DNA of 64,000 bases from a virus (IMGVR_UViG_3300035180_001778:62001-126000), one strand, 5' to 3'; numbered from the stretch's first letter, positions 18,805 through 28,605 are shown. Notes: generated by a model not told the origin, from the sequence alone. Numbers and translations are program-made.

Positions 18805-19665
18805 TCAAGTACTCCTGTAGTTCTTTTGGTAGTTGCCCGCGTAAGAGGGCGTCTTCTTGTGACACGAAATGCAGAGCGTTCGACCGTTGGTCAAGTCCCA
18901 GAGGGCGGGACAGTTGAACGCATCTTCGAGGGTCTTGATACGATGCTCGTCGAGGAGTCCCGCAAGAGGTTTAATGTGGTCCGCCTGTAGTTGACCCCCA
19001 ACTTGACCACATCCCTGGCAAGTATAGGCGTCCCTCTTGAAGACATCCTTTCGCCATCGGATAGCCGGTTCGGAGTTCCGAATCAGAGCTGAGAGGCGAG
19101 TTTTCCCGCCCTTCCAGTTGGACCCCTTCTCCCCTAGAAAACGACCTCGGTTGGCTTGAGCTATTTTCTGCTTGATCTCGGAGCTATGCTCACGCCCAAA
19201 GAAGGGATTCTTCTCCCCCACTCGTTGGGAGGCGCTCTCCGAGAGAGCTTGGCGAACCTCCAGTCGTTGCATTGCAGCTTTTTGAGCTGCCACAAAGTCT
19301 GGTGTGTGTCGTATAGAATTCAGCCTTGTGTGTGCGGCTTCCTTCACCTCTTCTGTATGCGTTCTCCCATACATGGGATTTCGGATCCCCGAAGTTGAGG
19401 CACTTCGGCGGGCCTTTACCTCGGGATCCTTATTTGTGACTTGAAGGGTCTCTGAGGTTTTCCGCCGGGTCGCGTCTGACTTCGTCTTCCCGTGCATGGG
19501 GTTTTTGTCCCCAGAGAGCGCCTCGGATTTCGTTCGCCTTGGAATTCCGTAGCGCGCCATGTGGTAGCGGATCGTGCTTGCGGACTCACCACAAAGAGAA
19601 GCGATCTGCCGAAGGGACAGCAGATCGCCAAGGTACTTCTGTCGGAGGAACTCTTCAGTTACCAC
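18805..19665 (-). CDS. HNH homing endonuclease with NUMOD3 motifs
   Basis: 286 aa. Residues 1-45 form a helix-turn-helix (LSLRQIASLCGESASTIRYH). Three NUMOD3-type DNA-binding motifs follow (KNPMHGKTKSD, RNPMYGRTHTEE, KNPFFGREHSSE). The C-terminal HNH nuclease has CQGCGQVGGQLQADHIKPL, DAFNCPALWDLTNGRTLC and a final CxxC partner. This is a free-standing mobile endonuclease. Thymidylate synthase next to it is uninterrupted, so it is not an intron ORF in this copy. Unlike the other two nuclease genes here it is intact. Confidence 0.9.
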   Translation of the reverse strand: MVTEEFLRQKYLGDLLSLRQIASLCGESASTIRYHMARYGIPRRTKSEALSGDKNPMHGKTKSDATRRKTSETLQVTNKDPEVKARRSASTSGIRNPMYGRTHTEEVKEAAHTRLNSIRHTPDFVAAQKAAMQRLEVRQALSESASQRVGEKNPFFGREHSSEIKQKIAQANRGRFLGEKGSNWKGGKTRLSALIRNSEPAIRWRKDVFKRDAYTCQGCGQVGGQLQADHIKPLAGLLDEHRIKTLEDAFNCPALWDLTNGRTLCISCHKKTPSYAGNYQKNYRST

Positions 19666-19689: not shown

Positions 19690-20817
19690 TCAGACTGCAA
19701 CTTTGAAGTTGATGGCCGGGTGCGGATTGTATCCTTCCAAGCGGAAGAGACCCATGATTTCCTCTGTAGTGACCGAGGGATCCATCAGGCGTTCGATATC
19801 GCTGAGATCCTTGATGCTGTCATCGATGATGAGACGAGGAAGAGGACGAGGCTCTCTGGTAAGTTGCTCGCGAGCCCCAGGGGTGTGGTCGTATTCGGCC
19901 ATAGACCCATCGGGCTTGGCACAGTAGATGTGCATGTCGACCACGGAATGCCCAAAAATCCCAGGCTTGATCCCCGTAAACCTGCTGAAAAGCTCGATGA
20001 GAAGAGCGTAGCTGGCAAGGTTGTACGGTGCGCCAAGCATTACATCCAGCGATCTTTGGGTCAAATGAAGACAGAGGCGACGCGGGTCGTCCCCCACAGG
20101 AGGATTCTTGAAGACATCCCCCCCACGCGCTCCGTTGAGAATGACCTGGCAGTCAGGGCACCACGCCTCCCTGTACTTCATCCCTTCCCCGTGCGGAAGA
20201 ACCCGTCGGCCGTCCTTGTAGTTGCCGCACACGGGGTCCTCTCCCCTGTTGTGCCCGTAATGCACGTACCTCGGCGTCGGGTCCTCGTTCTGCACGTTGA
20301 ACACGTAGAGGCAGTGGCAGGGCGGGAGCTTGCTCGTCTGAGCGTTCTGGGGAGCCCAAGCCGAGACGACCATCCGCCGGCTCATGGGGTTCTTGCGCAT
20401 CTCGGCGAGCACCCAGGCGATCTGGTCGTTGAAGGTTGCCCAGACGCCCTGGGGGAGCTGAAAGCCGCCAGGGGTGTTTTCGAACATCGTCTGATTGTAT
20501 GTGTGAACCGGGAAGTTGCGCCAGAAGTTCCCATAGGCGCTCGGGACCTTGCCCGTGACGGGGTCGGCCCATGCGTCCCAGAACTTGCACCCGTGGCGCT
20601 TGAGGATCGCGATGTCCGTCTGGCCCGATAGGAACCACAACATTTCAACAACGATATGAACCCAGTTGACCTTTTTCGTCGTGAGAAGGGGGAAGCCCTC
20701 ACTCAAGTCGACCTCGTAGTAATACCCAAATGTGCTCAACGTATCCACACCAGTACGGTTTTCCTTCCTGGTCCCGTTGCTGAGCACATGGTTCACCGCG
20801 TCGAGGTATTGCTTCAC
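19690..20817 (-). CDS. thyA: Thymidylate synthase (ThyA-type) with a cysteine-rich insertion
   Basis: 375 aa from the GTG at 20817, which overlaps the previous stop as GTGA. It converts dUMP to dTMP. Core motifs: RTGVDT (21-26), NWVHIVVEMLWFLSG, catalytic Cys167 in LPPCHCLY, QRSLDVMLGAPYNLASYA (about 254-271) and DMHIYC. The asparagine in PYNLAS indicates dUMP rather than dCMP as substrate. Between YVFNV and LCLHLTQRS lies an insertion of about 70 residues (176-247) with Cys197, Cys220 and Cys223, which E. coli ThyA replaces with a short turn. Pairs with the DHFR at 14576-15187. Confidence 0.92.
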   Translation of the reverse strand: MKQYLDAVNHVLSNGTRKENRTGVDTLSTFGYYYEVDLSEGFPLLTTKKVNWVHIVVEMLWFLSGQTDIAILKRHGCKFWDAWADPVTGKVPSAYGNFWRNFPVHTYNQTMFENTPGGFQLPQGVWATFNDQIAWVLAEMRKNPMSRRMVVSAWAPQNAQTSKLPPCHCLYVFNVQNEDPTPRYVHYGHNRGEDPVCGNYKDGRRVLPHGEGMKYREAWCPDCQVILNGARGGDVFKNPPVGDDPRRLCLHLTQRSLDVMLGAPYNLASYALLIELFSRFTGIKPGIFGHSVVDMHIYCAKPDGSMAEYDHTPGAREQLTREPRPLPRLIIDDSIKDLSDIERLMDPSVTTEEIMGLFRLEGYNPHPAINFKVAV

Positions 20818-20984
20818 GATTCCATTCTTTCGCGTTCGTGAGGGCACATTCCGTAGAATCCGCGTGCCATGTTGCAGTTGTGGCAGAGAACCCGGAATCC
20901 TCCCGGGAGCCCTTGCCAGTAATTGAAAGAAGATCCACTTCGGACCTTGTCTTTCTTCCTTTGCTGGTTCCGGCGTCTTCTCAT
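20814..20984 (-). CDS. Small endonuclease VII/HNH-like zinc protein, 56 aa
   Basis: Starts MRRRRNQQRKKDKVRSGSSF and ends with GFRVLCHNCNMARGFYGMCP followed by HERERMES. LCHNCN...G.CPH is the C-terminal half of many phage HNH/endonuclease VII-like proteins, but the D-H/N catalytic front part is missing, so this is either a truncated nuclease or a small DNA-binding protein. The ATG sits at the end of a 9-bp hairpin stem and has GGTGTA 16 nt upstream. The stop is coupled to thyA (GTGA). Confidence 0.65.
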   Translation of the reverse strand: MRRRRNQQRKKDKVRSGSSFNYWQGLPGGFRVLCHNCNMARGFYGMCPHERERMES

Positions 20985-21009: not shown

Positions 21010-21234
21010 TCAGTATTCTCCGGGAGGAAGCTGAACGAGTGGTTCAGGCTCGGACAGGTTGTTGACCTGGCGAACCTCAACCCGAGCTTCCCTGAGACAG
21101 GCAAGGAACCCATCCAGGTCTTCCAGTTGAGCGTTGAAGGCGTTCATGCCAGGTTCGAGGAGCAAGAGGTGCTCCGGAAGCGGCACCTCTTCCACAGCCC
21201 AGACAACGAACGAGTAAAAGCCGCCGGTATTCAT
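21010..21234 (-). CDS. Small hypothetical protein, 74 aa
   Basis: MNTGGFYSFVVWAVEEVPLP; compact alpha/beta, ends in a proline-rich tail (VQLPPGEY). The ATG overlaps the stop of the 21231-22415 gene. No family recognised. Confidence 0.6.
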   Translation of the reverse strand: MNTGGFYSFVVWAVEEVPLPEHLLLLEPGMNAFNAQLEDLDGFLACLREARVEVRQVNNLSEPEPLVQLPPGEY

Positions 21235-22415
21235 CGGACGATCTGAACCTCGACGGGAAGGTCTGTCAACATCATGCCCTTGACGTGACGCCAATCGACC
21301 CAGAGTGTGTACTCGAAGGTAGCCACCACATCCCAGCGATCGTGAACCTCGCGAGCCTCGATTGTGAACGAGTCCGGGTGGATGACGATGACCCCCGCGG
21401 GTCCCTCGATCTCAGTCAGATTCCCCCCCTCAACAGGCATGATAAACGCCCGTTGTTGAAGGGGCCCGAATTGACTTCGGATAACGTCTTTTTGATGGGG
21501 ACTCGCCAACCAAAAAGAGTCCTCCGAATATCCTTCCAGGGGGATCGCAAAGACAGGGTCCAAGTATGATATCTTCTTGGAGTTTCTTCCTTGTGCAACC
21601 ACCGAAAGCGTTCGAGCGATCTCTGCCACCCACTGAGCGGCGATTCGAGCCGTGATGGCCGTCGTCTGATGGAAGTTGAGGTTGATGGTTGTCGGATCGG
21701 CGATGTTGGATCGTCCCGACGCAACCCCGATGCTCCGAACCAGGGGTGTGAGCTTGGATTCTTCCGGATCTGTGTCCCGCAGCTCGAAGCGAGCCAAGAA
21801 CGCTCCCATGTTCCCCCGGACGCGGTTGGGAATCAAGGACGGGAGCTGCTCCCGGATATCTTCGACGATCGTCTTCCTCCCCCGTTTCGTGATGGGAAGG
21901 AAGCGCGGGTCGTCTTCGACGTGGGTCCCCTTGGCCGCAAGACGTCGATAGGTGTCTCGCAGGACGTTCGTCTCCCGAGCTTCATCGAAGACCCATTGGA
22001 CCAGGAAGCCTTCGAGAGCGGGCCGAAGACGACGGAGCGGGGTAGACATCCCCCCGCTCTCACGAGGCACGTCAGGAGGCTGCCAGATGTCCTCCTCCGT
22101 GACCTTGTAGATGGCACGCCCCGTCGTTGACGAGATGATGAGCATCCCGTCGCCGAGCTGGAGGTACTCATCGGCGAGGTAGGCCGCAGCCGCCTGGATC
22201 TCTGCGTTGTTGCCTTCGACATGGTCGAAGAGCACCTCAGCAAGGTCCGAGGCAAACCGAGATGAGTCTTGCTTCTCGTCTCGGGCTCTGCGGAAGAGCT
22301 GTTGAAGGGCAGGGTTGCGTTGGATCTCTTGCCGAGCGGCGAGAAGATCCCCCGAGGCCGGACAAGCGAGTGTCCGGACCTCGGGGATCAGCGGGACCAA
22401 AGAAGAGCTGGGCAT
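21231..22415 (-). CDS. Hypothetical protein, 394 aa, downstream of the AAA+ gene
   Basis: MPSSSLVPLIPEVRTLACPA. The first half is helical and charged (QEIQRNPALQQLFRRARDEK). The second half has NRVRGNMGAFLARFELRDTD, NLNFHQTTAITARIAAQWVA and a beta-rich end. No domain recognised. It starts within three bases of the AAA+ ATPase stop and may be co-translated with it, so it could be a client or accessory protein of that ATPase. A longer in-frame start exists but overlaps the ATPase. Confidence 0.6.
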   Translation of the reverse strand: MPSSSLVPLIPEVRTLACPASGDLLAARQEIQRNPALQQLFRRARDEKQDSSRFASDLAEVLFDHVEGNNAEIQAAAAYLADEYLQLGDGMLIISSTTGRAIYKVTEEDIWQPPDVPRESGGMSTPLRRLRPALEGFLVQWVFDEARETNVLRDTYRRLAAKGTHVEDDPRFLPITKRGRKTIVEDIREQLPSLIPNRVRGNMGAFLARFELRDTDPEESKLTPLVRSIGVASGRSNIADPTTINLNFHQTTAITARIAAQWVAEIARTLSVVAQGRNSKKISYLDPVFAIPLEGYSEDSFWLASPHQKDVIRSQFGPLQQRAFIMPVEGGNLTEIEGPAGVIVIHPDSFTIEAREVHDRWDVVATFEYTLWVDWRHVKGMMLTDLPVEVQIVR

Positions 22416-22416
22416 G

Positions 22417-23991
22417 TCACTCGACGAGCTTGAAGCTGCTTCCCTTGCTCGGGGCCGAAGCCAGGCGAGCCTTGATCCCTTCGTTGGCTTCCGTGTCGAA
22501 GCCAACCCACTCGACCAGCTCGCGGATCTCGTCGACCATCGTCTTGAGGATCCGGGGCTTCTTCACCGCGATGTCCAGAAGGATGGTCTCGTCGAGCTTC
22601 TTGCTTCGAGCCTTGAAGCTCTTCCGCATACCCGCGCCGACCGCCTGCTCGATCTCACGACCGACCATGCCCTTGCAAGCATCGGACAGAGCGGCGAGCT
22701 GGTAGTCACTCGGGTTCTGCCCCGCCTTGCGGAGGTGGATCCGGAGGATCTCGATCCGCTCTTCCTCGCTCGGGATGTCGAAGAAGAACCGCTCGTCCAT
22801 ACGGTTGACGAACTCGATGGGGAGCGTCTTCAACGAGTTCGCCGTGAGGGCGAGGCAGATCGGAGACGTGGTCTCCTGGAGCCAGGTCGAGAGGATACCG
22901 ATCGTGCGGCTCGTCGTTCCTGCATCGGAGGCCGCCGAAGATGCCCCGCCGCCGAGGCTCTTCTCGGCCTCATCGATCCACACCACACAGGGAGCGATGG
23001 ACTCGATGTGCCGGATGGCCTTGTAGACGTTGGCTTCGGACTGGCCGACGTTGGCCGACCGGAGCTTGCCCATTTCGAGCTGGACGACCGGCATGCCCCA
23101 CTCACGAGCCATCGCCTTCGAGGCGAGCGACTTGCCACAGCCCCAGACGCCCACGAGGAGGACACCCTTCGGGGGCTTGAGCCCGAAGGCCCGCCCTTCC
23201 TCCGACCAGGAGTCCTTCGTTTCGATCGCCCACTCCTTGAAGCGATGGTTGCCGCCGAGCTGATCGAAGGACACGTTGTCGACGTCGAGAAGCTGGAGAA
23301 GGTCCGTCTTCTTGAGATGGTTCCGGCGATACTTCGTGATGTGCGCCGGGTCGATCCGCTTCGGAGCGGACTCGTCCTTCTTGGTGGCCACGATCGACTT
23401 GGCCACGGCCATATCGATCTGGTAGCTGTTCATCCCAGCGAAGAGCTGCGCACAGTTGGGCGGGGGCTCGACTCCGGGGAGGTGCTTGCAGGCCGCCTCG
23501 ACCGTCGACATGATCTCTTCCGACGTCAGCCCGGTGTCCTGGATGACCTCGACGTAGGGTTCGAGGCAGGCCGGGATCTGCTTGCGGGTCCCGACGAAGA
23601 TCAGGATCTTGAGGGTGCGGATGTCCTGGTGGACCTGGTGAATGATGTTCATGAACCGGCGGTTCACATGAGCATCGTTGAGCCAACGCTCCGGGTCCGT
23701 GAAGACGTAGAAGTTGCGCTCGTCCTTGGGGTCATCCTTGTAGATGTGCTCCAAAGCACTGTGAATGTCCGCCTGCTCCCGATTGACCGCGTGCTGCTTC
23801 GAGGTCCAATCCGTGATCAGGTTCTTGAGCGTCACCAACCCGAGGGTTGCGTTGAACACCCAGCACCGATCGGCGTGCTTCTTGAGGGTGTCCCGCAGCT
23901 TCACGAGGAACCGATCTTCCTCGTCGGTGACGTAGTAAATCACGCGGCTCAGGCTGCGAAGGTGGAAGACGAGTTCTTCGTGGGATGACAT
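22417..23991 (-). CDS. AAA+ ATPase, Ycf46-like
   Basis: 524 aa. An N-terminal region of about 240 residues (LVFHLRSLSRVIYYVTDEED, FYVFTDPERWL, ILIFVGTRKQIP) matches the Ycf46 layout, an ATPase-like but degenerate front half. The C-terminal AAA+ module has Walker A GVWGCGKS (about 280), Walker B CVVWIDEAEK (about 335) and the second-region arginine NRMDERFFFD. Ycf46 proteins are of unknown function. GGTGTA lies 16 nt before the ATG. The genes before it encode DUF1257 and DUF2997 proteins, the partners seen with Ycf46 in cyanobacteria. Confidence 0.85.
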   Translation of the reverse strand: MSSHEELVFHLRSLSRVIYYVTDEEDRFLVKLRDTLKKHADRCWVFNATLGLVTLKNLITDWTSKQHAVNREQADIHSALEHIYKDDPKDERNFYVFTDPERWLNDAHVNRRFMNIIHQVHQDIRTLKILIFVGTRKQIPACLEPYVEVIQDTGLTSEEIMSTVEAACKHLPGVEPPPNCAQLFAGMNSYQIDMAVAKSIVATKKDESAPKRIDPAHITKYRRNHLKKTDLLQLLDVDNVSFDQLGGNHRFKEWAIETKDSWSEEGRAFGLKPPKGVLLVGVWGCGKSLASKAMAREWGMPVVQLEMGKLRSANVGQSEANVYKAIRHIESIAPCVVWIDEAEKSLGGGASSAASDAGTTSRTIGILSTWLQETTSPICLALTANSLKTLPIEFVNRMDERFFFDIPSEEERIEILRIHLRKAGQNPSDYQLAALSDACKGMVGREIEQAVGAGMRKSFKARSKKLDETILLDIAVKKPRILKTMVDEIRELVEWVGFDTEANEGIKARLASAPSKGSSFKLVE

Positions 23992-24001
23992 AGGGACTCT
24001 T

Positions 24002-24007
24002 TACACC
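24002..24007 (-). promoter_or_regulatory. TGTA start-site motif
   Basis: GGTGTA, 16 nt upstream of ATG 23991 (Ycf46-like gene). Confidence 0.5.
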
Positions 24008-24045
24008 GTTGGGGCCTAAACCCCATCTTGATTGAACTTCTACCC

Positions 24046-24096
24046 CTGAAATGCGAGTGCCCTTCCTCTTGTGAAGGAAGGGCACTCGCATTTCAG
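24046..24096. repeat. 22-bp perfect inverted repeat
   Basis: The arms at 24046-24067 and 24075-24096 are perfectly complementary over 22 bp around a 7-nt loop. It sits in the 142-bp gap between the DUF1257 gene and the AAA+ ATPase gene. No T-run follows on either strand, so it is a strong hairpin but not a textbook intrinsic terminator. It might attenuate or protect the transcript, or be a protein-binding site. Confidence 0.8.
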
Positions 24097-24133
24097 TTAC
24101 CGGGGACTCACCCGGCCGCCGAAGGGAACCGGA

Positions 24134-24457
24134 TCAGGCGCTCGCGCACATCAGGGTGATGGTGCCGTCCTTCTCGACGGTGCGGCTCTCGATCGTGATG
24201 CCCTGCTTCAGGCACTCGAAGCGGTAGGACACCTCTCCATAGGCCTGCTTGATGGCACCCAGCGTCGAGGCGCTGTGGCGATCGGTGTCGCCCGTGATCG
24301 TCCCCGTGGTGAGGTCGAGCGAGGCCGTGTTGAGGGGCCCGCTCGTGAAGCGGATGGTGTTGCCGGTCTCCTGGAAGGTGACGCCCTGCTGCTTGCAGGC
24401 CTCCTTCACGTTGGCGGCATTCTTCATCTCGGTTTGGGTCGTGACGCGGTGGGACAT
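24134..24457 (-). CDS. DUF1257 (Ycf35-like) protein
   Basis: 107 aa. MSHRVTTQTEMKNAANVKEA, then TIRFTSGPLNTASLDLTTG, AIKQAYGEVSYRFECLKQG and TVEKDGTITLMC follow the DUF1257/Ycf35 pattern (MSH start, a helix with K.AC...G, several strands, a final I.L.C). Function unknown. In cyanobacteria and some phages it accompanies an AAA+ ATPase and a DUF2997 protein, as here. AGAGGAA before the ATG is a good ribosome site. Confidence 0.82.
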   Translation of the reverse strand: MSHRVTTQTEMKNAANVKEACKQQGVTFQETGNTIRFTSGPLNTASLDLTTGTITGDTDRHSASTLGAIKQAYGEVSYRFECLKQGITIESRTVEKDGTITLMCASA

Positions 24458-24496
24458 GTTCTGGGATTCCTCTCGAAAGGGTACTTCTGGTGAGGC

Positions 24497-24679
24497 TTAC
24501 AGCGAAGAGTCGCTGTTGACCTCGGTCTGCGGATCGCACTCGGGGCCGATCTCGTCGTCGCTGAGCTGCTTGCCGATGGCGTTGGTCACCTTGTAGATTT
24601 CGCTGCAAAGGTGGTTCTCGCGGGCGAGAACTTCGGTGACGACCTTGCCGTCGGTCTTGATGGAGGCCTTGAATTTCAT
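24497..24679 (-). CDS. DUF2997-like small protein
   Basis: 60 aa. MKFKASIKTDGKVVTEVLAR then a cysteine, a helix (CSEIYKVTNAIGKQL) and an acidic tail. The pattern (short strand, D G, strand, cysteine, helix) fits DUF2997, which is found beside DUF1257. A longer ORF upstream is rejected: a GGAGAGA ribosome site lies just before this ATG. A GGTGTA element is 62 nt upstream, at the end of the preceding gene. Confidence 0.7.
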   Translation of the reverse strand: MKFKASIKTDGKVVTEVLARENHLCSEIYKVTNAIGKQLSDDEIGPECDPQTEVNSDSSL

Positions 24680-24732
24680 GTCTTGTCTCTCCGGTAGCTC
24701 CGGTAGCTTCGGTGGTGTGGGGGACAGCCTAT

Positions 24733-25278
24733 CTATACACCAGAACCGCGGAGCTTGACCGTGCCTCCAGGTGAAATAGTCGGATCCGTTGTGGGAGGAA
24801 GAGAAGAAGCGGCCCACGGATCTCTTGAAGGAGTGACGGGGGCCCCTACCATTTTTCCCGATTGATCCGGGGCATTTGCCAGGGACAACCGGCGCGGGAG
24901 GACCAGCTTGGAGCTGGGAACGGGCGGAACCGAAATGATGGAAGCCGGGGAAACGGGAGCCGTCTCCAGCTTTTCAGCTTCCGCCAGGGGGTCGATCCAC
25001 CCCGAAGAGCGAATCTCAGGGGTGCGCCCGACATACAGGGTCAGGAATCGTTGACCCTGGATCTTCATGTAGCGGGGATCTTGGGGATCCATCTGCGGGG
25101 GGTTGTTGAACAATCGATCCTCCCAGCTCTGGATTCGACGCTCGAATTTAACCCCACTCAAAAGGCTACGAGAACACTCCGAAGTCATGCAACGGGAGCA
25201 GCACTCGGCCGTGAACTGGTCGAGCGACGCCCCGTCCACGTTGCATTCCCCGTACAAATCTCGACGTTCCGAAGCCAT
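24733..25278 (-). CDS. Cysteine-rich N-terminal protein with proline-rich tail, 181 aa
   Basis: The start MASERRDLYGECNVDGASLD leads into ECCSRCMTSECSRSLL, five cysteines in 15 residues, then a helix with RRIQSWEDRLFNNPP. The last 80 residues are Pro/Ser/Ala-rich and likely disordered. It precedes DUF2997, DUF1257 and the AAA+ ATPase and may belong to that unit. A zinc or metal cluster is suggested. No family assigned. Confidence 0.6.
   Translation of the reverse strand: MASERRDLYGECNVDGASLDQFTAECCSRCMTSECSRSLLSGVKFERRIQSWEDRLFNNPPQMDPQDPRYMKIQGQRFLTLYVGRTPEIRSSGWIDPLAEAEKLETAPVSPASIISVPPVPSSKLVLPRRLSLANAPDQSGKMVGAPVTPSRDPWAASSLPPTTDPTISPGGTVKLRGSGV
24736..24741 (-). promoter_or_regulatory. 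TGTA motif, distant copy
   Basis: GGTGTA, 62 nt upstream of ATG 24679 (DUF2997); overlaps the stop region of the preceding gene. Confidence 0.35.
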
Positions 25279-25318: not shown

Positions 25319-28180
25319 TTACGAGCTGGGAAGATACTGTCCGTCGGAAAGATGCATCTCCTTGAGAGCCCCCGCGACCATCTCGGGGTTGATCTTGACT
25401 CCGAGCTTGGGGTCAATGATCGTCTTCCCCGACATCGGGTCAATCAACCGGAGGATCGATCCGTTGTCGGGATCGATGTACTGCGCGCACACCCCACGGA
25501 CTTGCCGAAGCGTGGACGGGGACAGTTCTCGAAGCCGAATCGTGACGACCTTGGGCGGCGGACCATCCTGCTTCAACGTCTGTTGAGACAAGGGAGCCAT
25601 CGGCGAAGAGGGAGGCGTCTCCTTCTCACGACCACCCGAGGACGGGGGAGTTGAAGGGGGCGGTGAGCTGGAGCCCCCCTTGAGCCACGGGGGGTCGATC
25701 TTCAACCGGATGGTGAAGACCTTCTTGCCGCTCTTCTCCTCCGTCTTGACGATGACTTCCTCTTCCAGGATCTCAGCTTCCTTCTCGACCACACGGGTGA
25801 GAGAGTAGACGAATCCGCCGAGGAGCACTTCGAACTCCTTGAGGACATACCCTTCCTTGAAAAGAACGACACCATAGCCCGCGCCCCAGTTGAAGCCGAT
25901 CAAGGGCTCGACAATAAGAGGGACCTGCCAGATAGGCGAGTAGGGAGGACGAGCCATCTTCGTCGGCATCTCCATCTGCTCGACGATGAGGGGGATGGCT
26001 TCCGCCACACGATCGAAGCGAATCTCGAAGACAAGCTCGTCGTGAACCGTGAGGAGCATCCGAACCGAATCGTCACCCCCATTTCGGAGCCAGCCCCGGC
26101 GGTGGAACTCCTTGTGGAGCAGAACCATCGCGATCTTCATGATGTCCGCGCCGCTCCCCTGAATCGGGTAGTTCGTCGCGTGACGCTCACAGGCAGCTCG
26201 GATCATGTTCGCGTCTTGCGACGACAAGATCCGACCGTTGTGCATCTCCCCTTCCATCACGTTGGCATCGGGGATGGCAATCCAACGACCGAAAGCCGTC
26301 CAGACGCCCTTGTCCCTCTTGACCTTCGTGTGTTGCTGCTTGACCCACTTCGCGAAGGTCGGGACCGCCTTATCGAAGGCCGCCTTCCGGCGTTGCCCCT
26401 CGACCTTGTCACAGCCCGTCGCCCGCATGATGGCCGCCGGCCCACCACCGTAGACGAGAGTGAAGTTGGCAATCTTGCCCATCTTCCGCTCGTCCTTGGT
26501 GATGTCCGCCTTGTTGAAGAAGGCCCTGGCGGTGATGCTGTGGAGATCGCCCGACCCTTCCTTGAACTCCTTGATCCAGACGCCTTCGTTCGAGAGGTTC
26601 GTGACGATCCGCAGCTCTTGGCCTGCGTAATCGCACTTGCACATCGCATAGCCCGGCCGGGCCTCGAAGCACGTTCGAATGTCGGACGTCGAAGGAATCC
26701 CGTGGCTGGGGACGCCACTGAAACCATGGTCGAGATGGTCCTTCCGGCTCGGAGCCGAGAAGCGCCCTGTGGCCGCTCCCGTCTGCTTCCAGTCGAACCG
26801 CATCTCCGACAGAGGCATCGCGTGCTTGTCGTAGTTCTCGTAGAGGTTGTGCAGGTAGGTCCCGAGGAGCTTCTCTTCACCCCGGAGCTTGACCATCCAT
26901 TGGAGGATCATGGGGGCATTGGGGCCCATGTCCTTCGTGAGGGTTTCGAGAGTCTCCCCGTCCGTCTTGTACTGCTGAGACTTCTCGTTCTTCTCGGGCT
27001 TGGGGGAGATGTCCAGACCCTTCTCCCCGAAGAGGAACTCTCCGAGCTGCTTGGTGCTCGCAGGGTCGAAGCTGTGGAAGCCCTTGCTCTTGGCGAGAGC
27101 GTCGATGAGAACGAGAAGCTCATCGCGCTTCTTGGTGTGCCTGTCCAGGAGGAGCTTGACCTTGCCCCGGTTCACCATTGCGCGGTTGCGTTCCATGACG
27201 CGAACCACCTGGGATACTTGCTTCTCCAGGCGGTAGGTGAAGCCGTACTTGTCCCGGCTCAGCTTCACGAGGTCGTCTCGTAGGCAGAGGAGGTTCGTGC
27301 AGATAGCGTCGGAACAGGCGTATTTGATCACGCCCGGCTCATCCGGCGAGAGCGAATCGAACTTGATCGGGCGGCCCTTGAGGAACAGCTCCTTCAGCTC
27401 GATCATCTCGTAGGCGTACTCGACCCTCAACCGCTTCCCGTCCGATCCCGTGACCTCTTCCGAGACTCGGAGACGAGACTTCGAGTTCTCCTTGAGACCA
27501 AGCCAGTCGTCGGAGTAGACCGTGAAGGCCGCCAGGCAACCATCCTCGAAGGAGTCGGGGTGCCACCAATCGATCCCCGTGATGGGGTAGAGGAACTCCT
27601 GATCGAACTTGGCGTTCCAGAAGTTGATGACGAGCTGCGGTCCCTCCTCGAACTCCTTGAAGGATAGGAGGTCCTTGGGGGTGCCCTTGGGGGTCGGCTG
27701 CGAGGCGAGACACAGTCGACGGATTTCCGCTTCGACCTCGCTCGGCTTGACGTTCAGATCCGGCATCCCTTCGCCGGTCTTGTGGCGGACAGGGATGTAG
27801 TAGCCCGTCTTGGAGTCGACCGAGATGCAGAACCCCACGATCTTGTGGACCGTCTGAGGCTTGCCCTCCGCATCGTAGAAGATGCGGTTGTCGAGGCCCT
27901 GGGTTTCCAGGTCGAGCGAGCAGTTCTTGGCAGCGATGGCCGCATCGACGATCGTTCGAACCTCTTCGATGGCCTTCACGAGCACGAACTCGTGAAAACG
28001 CATCCACGGCTTCGTCGGGTCGGGGACATCGCGTTCCCTGACCATCCCGGTGTTCGACATGAAGTCGTCGAGCCCACCCTCATCCTCGAAGGACTCGATG
28101 GGGCGATCCTTCTCCTTGCGTCCGAGAGGAGCCGGGGAGTTCAAGAAGTCAATATCGTCGTCATCGAACTCGTCAGCCAT
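25319..28180 (-). CDS. DNA polymerase, family A, with long C-terminal extension
   Basis: 953 aa from ATG 28180 (TGATG overlap with the previous stop). The exonuclease domain is near the start (CSLDLETQG), with IKYACSDAICTNLL later. Polymerase motif A is CKCDYAGQELRIVTN, motif B KMGKIANFTLVYGGG and motif C LLTVHDELVFEI, at about residue 715. Family A enzymes usually end within about 60-80 residues of motif C. Here about 180 more follow, including a Pro/Ser linker and a terminal charged domain (KVVTIRLRELSPSTLRQVRG). It is the replicative polymerase of this phage. Confidence 0.92.
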   Translation of the reverse strand: MADEFDDDDIDFLNSPAPLGRKEKDRPIESFEDEGGLDDFMSNTGMVRERDVPDPTKPWMRFHEFVLVKAIEEVRTIVDAAIAAKNCSLDLETQGLDNRIFYDAEGKPQTVHKIVGFCISVDSKTGYYIPVRHKTGEGMPDLNVKPSEVEAEIRRLCLASQPTPKGTPKDLLSFKEFEEGPQLVINFWNAKFDQEFLYPITGIDWWHPDSFEDGCLAAFTVYSDDWLGLKENSKSRLRVSEEVTGSDGKRLRVEYAYEMIELKELFLKGRPIKFDSLSPDEPGVIKYACSDAICTNLLCLRDDLVKLSRDKYGFTYRLEKQVSQVVRVMERNRAMVNRGKVKLLLDRHTKKRDELLVLIDALAKSKGFHSFDPASTKQLGEFLFGEKGLDISPKPEKNEKSQQYKTDGETLETLTKDMGPNAPMILQWMVKLRGEEKLLGTYLHNLYENYDKHAMPLSEMRFDWKQTGAATGRFSAPSRKDHLDHGFSGVPSHGIPSTSDIRTCFEARPGYAMCKCDYAGQELRIVTNLSNEGVWIKEFKEGSGDLHSITARAFFNKADITKDERKMGKIANFTLVYGGGPAAIMRATGCDKVEGQRRKAAFDKAVPTFAKWVKQQHTKVKRDKGVWTAFGRWIAIPDANVMEGEMHNGRILSSQDANMIRAACERHATNYPIQGSGADIMKIAMVLLHKEFHRRGWLRNGGDDSVRMLLTVHDELVFEIRFDRVAEAIPLIVEQMEMPTKMARPPYSPIWQVPLIVEPLIGFNWGAGYGVVLFKEGYVLKEFEVLLGGFVYSLTRVVEKEAEILEEEVIVKTEEKSGKKVFTIRLKIDPPWLKGGSSSPPPSTPPSSGGREKETPPSSPMAPLSQQTLKQDGPPPKVVTIRLRELSPSTLRQVRGVCAQYIDPDNGSILRLIDPMSGKTIIDPKLGVKINPEMVAGALKEMHLSDGQYLPSS

Positions 28181-28605
28181 CACGCCTCCTGAACCAACAC
28201 GATGTACACACCCTCACGCCAGAGCCGAATGATCTCGGCCGCGAGGGGCCCCGTAAAATCATCCGTTCCTTCGGGCTGAAAACACCAAGGCATCTTCTTG
28301 GCCGACGGGACGCAGTAATGGGGGATGTAGAGGCTACACCGCTTCCTCTGGACACACTGAGAATGTGTCTCAGGGAGCTTGCGTAGAAGTAGAGCTGGCG
28401 CCGGGCCTAGCTGGTCGAGGAAGGGGCGGGTCCAACCTCGAAGGGCATGGTCCATCGTCGCCTTCGAGACTTGAGGGATGTTGGCCGTGATCGGCTGGCC
28501 TTGAAGCTGGAACCATTCATCTTCCCAGGCCTCGCCGTAGACGTAGATGAGGAACAGCTCCAGGAAGCCCAGCTCGTTGGTCCGGATCTTCAGACGTCGG
28601 GACAA
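28180..28605 (-). CDS. Hypothetical protein, 141 aa
   Basis: Starts at a TTG (MSRRLKIRTNELGFLELFLI) inside the end of the CHC2 gene. It has a central MDHALRGWTRPFLDQLGPAP and a cysteine-containing segment (HSQCVQRKRCSLYIPHYC). No family recognised. The TTG start is uncertain, because no ATG is available before residue 50. It lies between the zinc-finger primase-like gene and the polymerase, so a replication role is possible. Confidence 0.55.
   Translation of the reverse strand: MSRRLKIRTNELGFLELFLIYVYGEAWEDEWFQLQGQPITANIPQVSKATMDHALRGWTRPFLDQLGPAPALLLRKLPETHSQCVQRKRCSLYIPHYCVPSAKKMPWCFQPEGTDDFTGPLAAEIIRLWREGVYIVLVQEA

Follow-up and report, generated by a model that had tools for sequence, protein, structure and literature searches.

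What would a bacterial gene set built around a Ycf46-type AAA+ ATPase do for a huge phage? The question is raised by a locus in IMGVR_UViG_3300035180_001778:62001-126000, a 64,000-nucleotide stretch of viral DNA (the whole of which is referred to as the window) that comprises bases 62001-126000 of a 350,469-base virus record. The major capsid protein (MCP) of this record is 82% identical to that of LR745208, a 485-kb uncultured phage, 48% identical to that of Tunturiibacter phage Tunturi_5 and 39% identical to gp27 of Bacillus phage G, and the source is therefore a huge phage related to phage G. The phage carries its own variant of a bacterial set that is known but functionally undefined (Ycf46, DUF1257 and DUF2997), and the surprising part of this variant is a recurrent partner, P0005, which is predicted to have a capsid fold and is not the MCP. 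A first-pass annotation had placed four co-directional genes at 22417-25278. These genes are real and lie on the minus strand, so that transcription runs from 25278 to 22417. The annotation had also reported a 394-amino-acid protein of unknown nature immediately after the ATPase. The adjacency is real, with the ATG of P0005 1 nucleotide past the ATPase stop and the gene just beyond the span 22417-25278, but the label "unknown" overlooked the predicted HK97 fold. In the order of transcription the genes encode P0004, P0003, P0002, P0001 and P0005, and the features of the locus are the following:

24733-25278, minus strand: Cys4 protein P0004, 181 amino acids (alignment of 18-36 homologues)
24497-24679, minus strand: DUF2997-type protein P0003, 60 amino acids (clade-independent DUF2997 profile; cysteine conservation)
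24134-24457, minus strand: DUF1257 (Ycf35)-type protein P0002, 107 amino acids (Pfam match below cut-off; clade profile)
24047-24095, minus strand: hairpin with a 23-bp perfect stem between the DUF1257 and ATPase genes (folding z-score; same gap in most relatives)
24002-24007, minus strand: GGTGTA box, about 16 nucleotides 5' of the ATPase start (enrichment in the gaps of relatives)
22417-23991, minus strand: Ycf46-type AAA+ ATPase P0001, 524 amino acids (Pfam AAA, phrog_8638, full-length Ycf46 alignment, motifs)
21231-22415, minus strand: predicted HK97-fold (capsid/encapsulin-like) protein P0005, 394 amino acids (AlphaFold model and Foldseek)

P0001 consists of a conserved N-terminal domain (residues ~1-232) followed by an AAA domain, which was matched by Pfam AAA with an E value of 8.7e-21. 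Residues 4-497 match phrog_8638 of PHROGs (function unknown) with an E value of 1e-85. A profile made from ten phage ATPases aligns over residues 1-493 with cyanobacterial Ycf46 at E values of about 1e-89 to 1e-90, and the profile of the N-domain alone matched cyanobacterial and other cellular Ycf46 proteins (E 1e-6 to 1e-9). The AAA domain is predicted to be active from its Walker A (GVWGCGKS, residue 281), Walker B (VVWIDEAEKS, 336), sensor-1 (TAN, 383) and Arg-finger (NRMDERF, 396) motifs. The Ycf46-type motif DExFFxDxPS is also present as MDERFFFDIPS. When the ATPase was split and searched for a degenerate AAA domain in its N-terminal part, only a weak lid-like match was obtained. The likeness to Ycf46 (the chloroplast and cyanobacterial AAA+ protein, slr0374) thus lies in a full-length co-linear alignment including the N-domain and in the shared neighbour DUF1257, whereas the huge-phage proteins lack residues matching the RKG ahead of the Arg-finger R and their gene is followed by that of the predicted HK97-fold protein. 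The anti-phage ATPase IetA shares with P0001 a generic classical AAA domain, but P0001 scores far below the cut-off of that family and the neighbouring IetS protease was not seen. A tree of 79 ATPases puts the huge-phage proteins in one clade (100/100), separate from a clade of four cultured-phage proteins; its deeper branching is unsafe because of long branches.

The two small proteins are more remote. P0002 reached an E value of 0.0018 and 18.9 bits with Pfam DUF1257, under the gathering cut-off of 22.2, and the DUF1257 proteins of phages SM1 and L338C score above the cut-off. A DUF1257 profile built from the phage clade only, and run on open reading frames (ORFs) of cellular loci preselected by a Ycf46 motif, retrieved the DUF1257 protein beside Ycf46 at nine cyanobacterial loci and one planctomycete locus. 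The model of P0002 has a mean predicted local distance difference test score (pLDDT) of 84, and its fold search against the PDB gave nothing better than E 0.04. P0003 had no Pfam match and did not reach the DUF2997 gathering cut-off of 24.1 bits; a relative (G009) reached 21.1 bits. A DUF2997 profile was made from one planctomycete and four cultured-phage sequences, excluding the huge-phage clade; when all ORFs of 62 viral loci were searched with it, its sole matches were the small ORF at the module position. Cys25 of P0003 is kept in 34 of 34 homologues. The family calls for the ATPase, DUF1257 and DUF2997 proteins are accordingly remote at the sequence level but cross-checked, and the cross-checks settle the identities that had been proposed in the first pass. 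P0003 also has a weak PADLOC match to residues 399-440 of PbeC (E 1e-4), which belongs to a phosphorothioate-based defence system.

The set is conserved among related huge phages. All thirteen contigs that were found through the ATPase carry the five genes in the same order, and querying with P0005 (34 loci) and the ATPase profile (28 loci) brought the total to about 40 distinct contigs with an identical five-gene order, among which the DUF2997 model was below threshold in two (L197 and L200) and one (L218) was cut by the contig end. The stop of the ATPase gene and the start of the P0005 gene touch or overlap by 4 nucleotides in several relatives, and are 0.8-1.5 kb apart in three. LR745208 lacks the ATPase, DUF1257, DUF2997 and P0005 genes together. 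Seven contigs that carry the MCP and lack the ATPase also lack P0005, although these contigs may be fragments. The annotation's view of a conserved, co-inherited and ATP-driven unit is supported. The proteins did not turn out to belong to other families, and the neighbourhood did not break up in related phages. The locus is flanked by genes reading as DNA polymerase I (25319-28183) and thymidylate synthase (19690-20847) and sits in a replication and nucleotide gene region. The genes for the MCP (G000 190469-191350 in record coordinates; phrog_2522, E 6e-52), the head maturation protease (193460-194947) and the portal (200338-201990) are about 106-117 kb distant. Judged from sequence comparison, the bacterial Ycf46-DUF1257-DUF2997 set has become fixed in the clade in a phage version, with the rapidly evolving P0005 after it, and gene identity, order, co-inheritance and separation from the MCP are the established steps of the argument. 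P0005 comes and goes with the ATPase set, while the MCP is encoded elsewhere and diverges far less, and this speaks for P0005 functioning with the set and not with the head.

P0005 was modelled with AlphaFold on an 11-sequence alignment, giving a mean pLDDT of 81.5 and a predicted template modelling (TM) score of 0.59. The model consists of a helical N-terminal stretch of about 90 residues followed by a capsid-like fold. In a Foldseek search of the PDB, the best 50 of 78 matches (E < 0.001) were encapsulins, phage or satellite capsids, or derived shells, with a probability of 1.00. The best 50 of 85 matches to viral models were capsid, head or structural proteins, one prohead protease fusion, or unnamed or uncharacterised phage proteins, with a probability of about 1.00. 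Structural alignments with encapsulins are nearly full length, with E values down to 1e-7, and the TM-scores are modest (0.24-0.37 on the query and up to 0.50 on the target). P0005 is thus predicted to adopt an HK97 fold of the capsid/encapsulin type. No method found a sequence-level link between P0005 and any capsid or encapsulin family, profile-profile comparison with the MCP of the record gave no similarity, and PHROG scans of the homologues of P0005 returned chance-level matches only; the HK97 fold therefore stays a prediction. P0005 as the MCP itself has been ruled out, because the true MCP lies elsewhere and keeps at least 90% identity across the 80 closest contigs while the homologues of P0005 are only 26-44% identical beyond the two nearest relatives. 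Median pairwise identity is 31% for P0005 and 55% for the ATPase.

From what is established for classical AAA+ proteins, the combination of an active AAA domain and a family-specific N-domain implies a protein-remodelling ring with small partners as adaptors. We tentatively favour, at somewhat less than even confidence, an infection-phase AAA+ remodelling module with a non-virion capsid-fold protein, P0005, as its dedicated client. The Ycf46-type ATPase would form an AAA+ ring and spend ATP to remodel or assemble client proteins, and the small DUF1257 and DUF2997 proteins may act as its adaptors or regulators. P0005, which is often translationally coupled to the ATPase, would be its dedicated client and may form, or be held back from forming, a shell-like assembly inside infected cells, presumably in the replication phase and outside the virion. 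The client role and the shell-like assembly are suggested by co-inheritance, gene coupling and the predicted fold. The position of the module among replication genes, 106 kb from the MCP, counts in favour of this reading. The Corndog homologue of the ATPase (gp96) was found in infected cells but in none of the particle preparations (PMC4351075), as would suit an intracellular role of the ATPase. Inteins interrupt the ATPase of three relatives (L014, L196 and L197; also L204) at a single position in its Walker B region, after APC in the motif APC-[IV]-V-W-x-DEAEK; two are long with a likely homing endonuclease and one is a mini-intein. Their location is a sign of an important active site and has been counted in favour of the remodelling module. 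No evidence was found for an action on membranes or host proteins, which the first-pass annotation had suggested. A recurrent predicted capsid-fold partner, often translationally coupled, offers a concrete client hypothesis for Ycf46, DUF1257 and DUF2997 and makes their function directly testable. If true, a second, non-virion HK97-fold protein would, to judge from the literature consulted, have no precedent among tailed phages.

Several results weigh against the client role of P0005. The HK97 call comes from one AlphaFold model with low TM-scores and no sequence-level link to capsids. The partial co-divergence of P0005 and DUF1257, given the ATPase, is 0.05, or near zero. In addition, no homologue of P0005 was detectable in Pseudomonas phage SM1, Rhizobium phage L338C, Agrobacterium phage JP1 or Rhodobacter phage RcKickapoo, and P0005 is therefore not needed for every version of the module. 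These cultured phages resemble the huge phages in having an ATPase (23-37% identity) near DUF1257 and DUF2997 genes. However, their ATPases belong to the separate clade, the gene after the ATPase and before DUF1257 and DUF2997 encodes a different protein of 200-243 amino acids, and the genes have not been annotated as a system. In Firecracker, a cluster O mycobacteriophage, the ATPase alone was detected. A bolder proposal, which we consider quite unlikely, is that, in infected cells, huge phages of the phage G group make a second HK97-fold shell that is not part of the virion; this encapsulin-like compartment or lattice would be built or loaded by Ycf46 with DUF1257 and DUF2997 as adaptors. 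P0005 resembles encapsulins in its predicted fold, but it has no sequence similarity to them and no identified cargo.

Ycf46, Ycf35 (DUF1257) and DUF2997 are conserved in cyanobacteria, and Ycf46 and Ycf35 are also found in red-algal plastids. The trio was described in the first pass as known from cyanobacteria, where it does occur, but it is not special to them, since other phyla and several cultured phages have it as well. The three genes are adjacent in members of Planctomycetota (L305), Myxococcales (L307), Desmonostoc (L056) and Thermoguttaceae (L066 and L313), and most cyanobacterial loci have Ycf46 followed by DUF1257. The bacterial sets therefore share with the phage module three adjacent families, but their gene order varies, some have radical-SAM or ferredoxin neighbours, and the predicted HK97-fold partner is found in huge phages only. 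In Thermoguttaceae and Clostridium, a small radical-SAM/4Fe-4S protein lies inside the DUF2997-ATPase-DUF1257 set; this Fer4_12 protein is encoded at L066:2954-3565 in the planctomycete and at L061:2217-2813 in Clostridium. In a Myxococcales genome, an eCIS_core (DUF4157) protein (L332:8751-9407) directly follows the ATPase, DUF1257 and DUF2997 genes.

It is rather unlikely, on balance, that the trio is a general AAA+ chaperone linked to stress, redox or iron-sulfur metabolism that was taken from bacteria and supports host physiology, with P0005 as a mere co-transcribed neighbour. Reports on Synechocystis have placed ycf46 in an operon responsive to many stresses and have shown that its loss lowers the activity of the carbonic anhydrase EcaB (PMC7496141), and in cyanobacteria DUF2997 and ycf35 sit beside the ferredoxin gene fed7 (PMC4284462). 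The radical-SAM/4Fe-4S proteins of Thermoguttaceae and Clostridium and the invariant cysteine of DUF2997 point in the same direction. Against a general chaperone, P0005 is present or absent together with the ATPase of the clade, the genes often overlap, and the phage module has no consistent redox gene. The published physiology of ycf46 (PMC7496141) does not contradict a role in assembly or remodelling and does not establish one.

In phage T4, gp24 relates to gp23 as a vertex or minor capsid protein to the main capsid protein. P0005 might likewise be an accessory head protein (vertex or minor capsid), with the ATPase set as a head-assembly chaperone, and we regard this as unlikely. HK97-fold proteins of tailed phages are normally head proteins, and the viral Foldseek matches among the best 50 of 85 are mostly MCPs, including phage G gp27. 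However, LR745208 builds its head from the 82%-identical MCP without P0005 or the ATPase, and no homologue of P0005 was detected in phage G or Tunturi_5. Moreover, the MCP is nearly invariant while P0005 diverges to about 26-44%, and the P0005 gene lies among replication genes 106 kb from the head genes.

It is improbable that the HK97-fold assignment is an artefact of modelling and that P0005 is an unrelated protein. The low TM-scores and the missing sequence support would agree with an artefact, but the pLDDT is 81.5 and the best 50 matches in two independent libraries were HK97-type capsids, encapsulins, or unnamed and uncharacterised phage proteins. That P0005 has an anti-defence or superinfection role, as a capsid-like decoy or poison that disturbs capsid assembly in competing phages or satellites and is controlled by the AAA+ set, is very improbable: P0005 does evolve much faster than its neighbours (31% against 55% for the ATPase), but matches to defence families are limited to the generic AAA similarity to IetA and the weak P0003-PbeC match, and nothing else at the locus points to defence.

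The first gene of the locus has proved separable from the rest. P0004 carries the motif C-x14-C-x2-C-x4-C, whose four cysteines are invariant among homologues, followed by a Pro-rich linker that varies and a C-terminal peptide, VxxPGAxVKLGG, that is conserved. LR745208 keeps a homologue of P0004 with its C-terminal peptide directly after the DNA polymerase, without P0005, the ATPase, DUF1257 or DUF2997. P0004, which had been counted as part of the unit in the first pass, is therefore better seen as a neighbour of the polymerase, to which it is probably linked rather than to the module. Because the conserved C-terminal peptide comes after a Pro-rich linker, P0004 was also considered as an encapsulin cargo with a targeting peptide. 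This idea was weakened by the retention of protein and peptide in LR745208 without P0005; a partial correlation of divergence between P0004 and P0005, given the ATPase, of 0.45 (uncorrected for phylogeny) keeps it alive. A P0004-type protein is also found beside DNA polymerase at L302:5971-6645, and its C-terminal peptide resembles a docking peptide for some partner.

The strong hairpin of the earlier annotation, which had been taken as a hint of a self-contained system, is real but has been reinterpreted. Between the DUF1257 stop and the ATPase start, the 146 nucleotides fold with -71.7 kcal/mol (z -6.7). A hairpin also occupies this gap in most relatives, with stems of unrelated sequence and often a T-rich 3' flank. 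Conservation of the position but not of the sequence, and the frequent T-rich 3' side, are what a terminator would show, and the hairpin is most likely one. The hairpin of the window itself has no T-run, and the terminator scan did not call it. GGTGTA occurs in the DUF1257-ATPase gap of 23 of 28 relatives, compared with 5% of background 120-nucleotide windows, and is, from this enrichment, probably a promoter or start element of the phage. The genes are likely to be transcribed as two units, DUF2997-DUF1257 and ATPase-P0005. The GGTGTA box recurs in the window shortly 5' of several starts on the minus strand (10592, 16512, 12972, 31976, 32701 and others). In one relative (L215), an HNH-type Cys-rich sequence is seemingly inserted in the DUF1257-ATPase gap. 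In the window, a frame at 18805-19665 that adjoins the thymidylate synthase-like gene resembles an HNH homing endonuclease.

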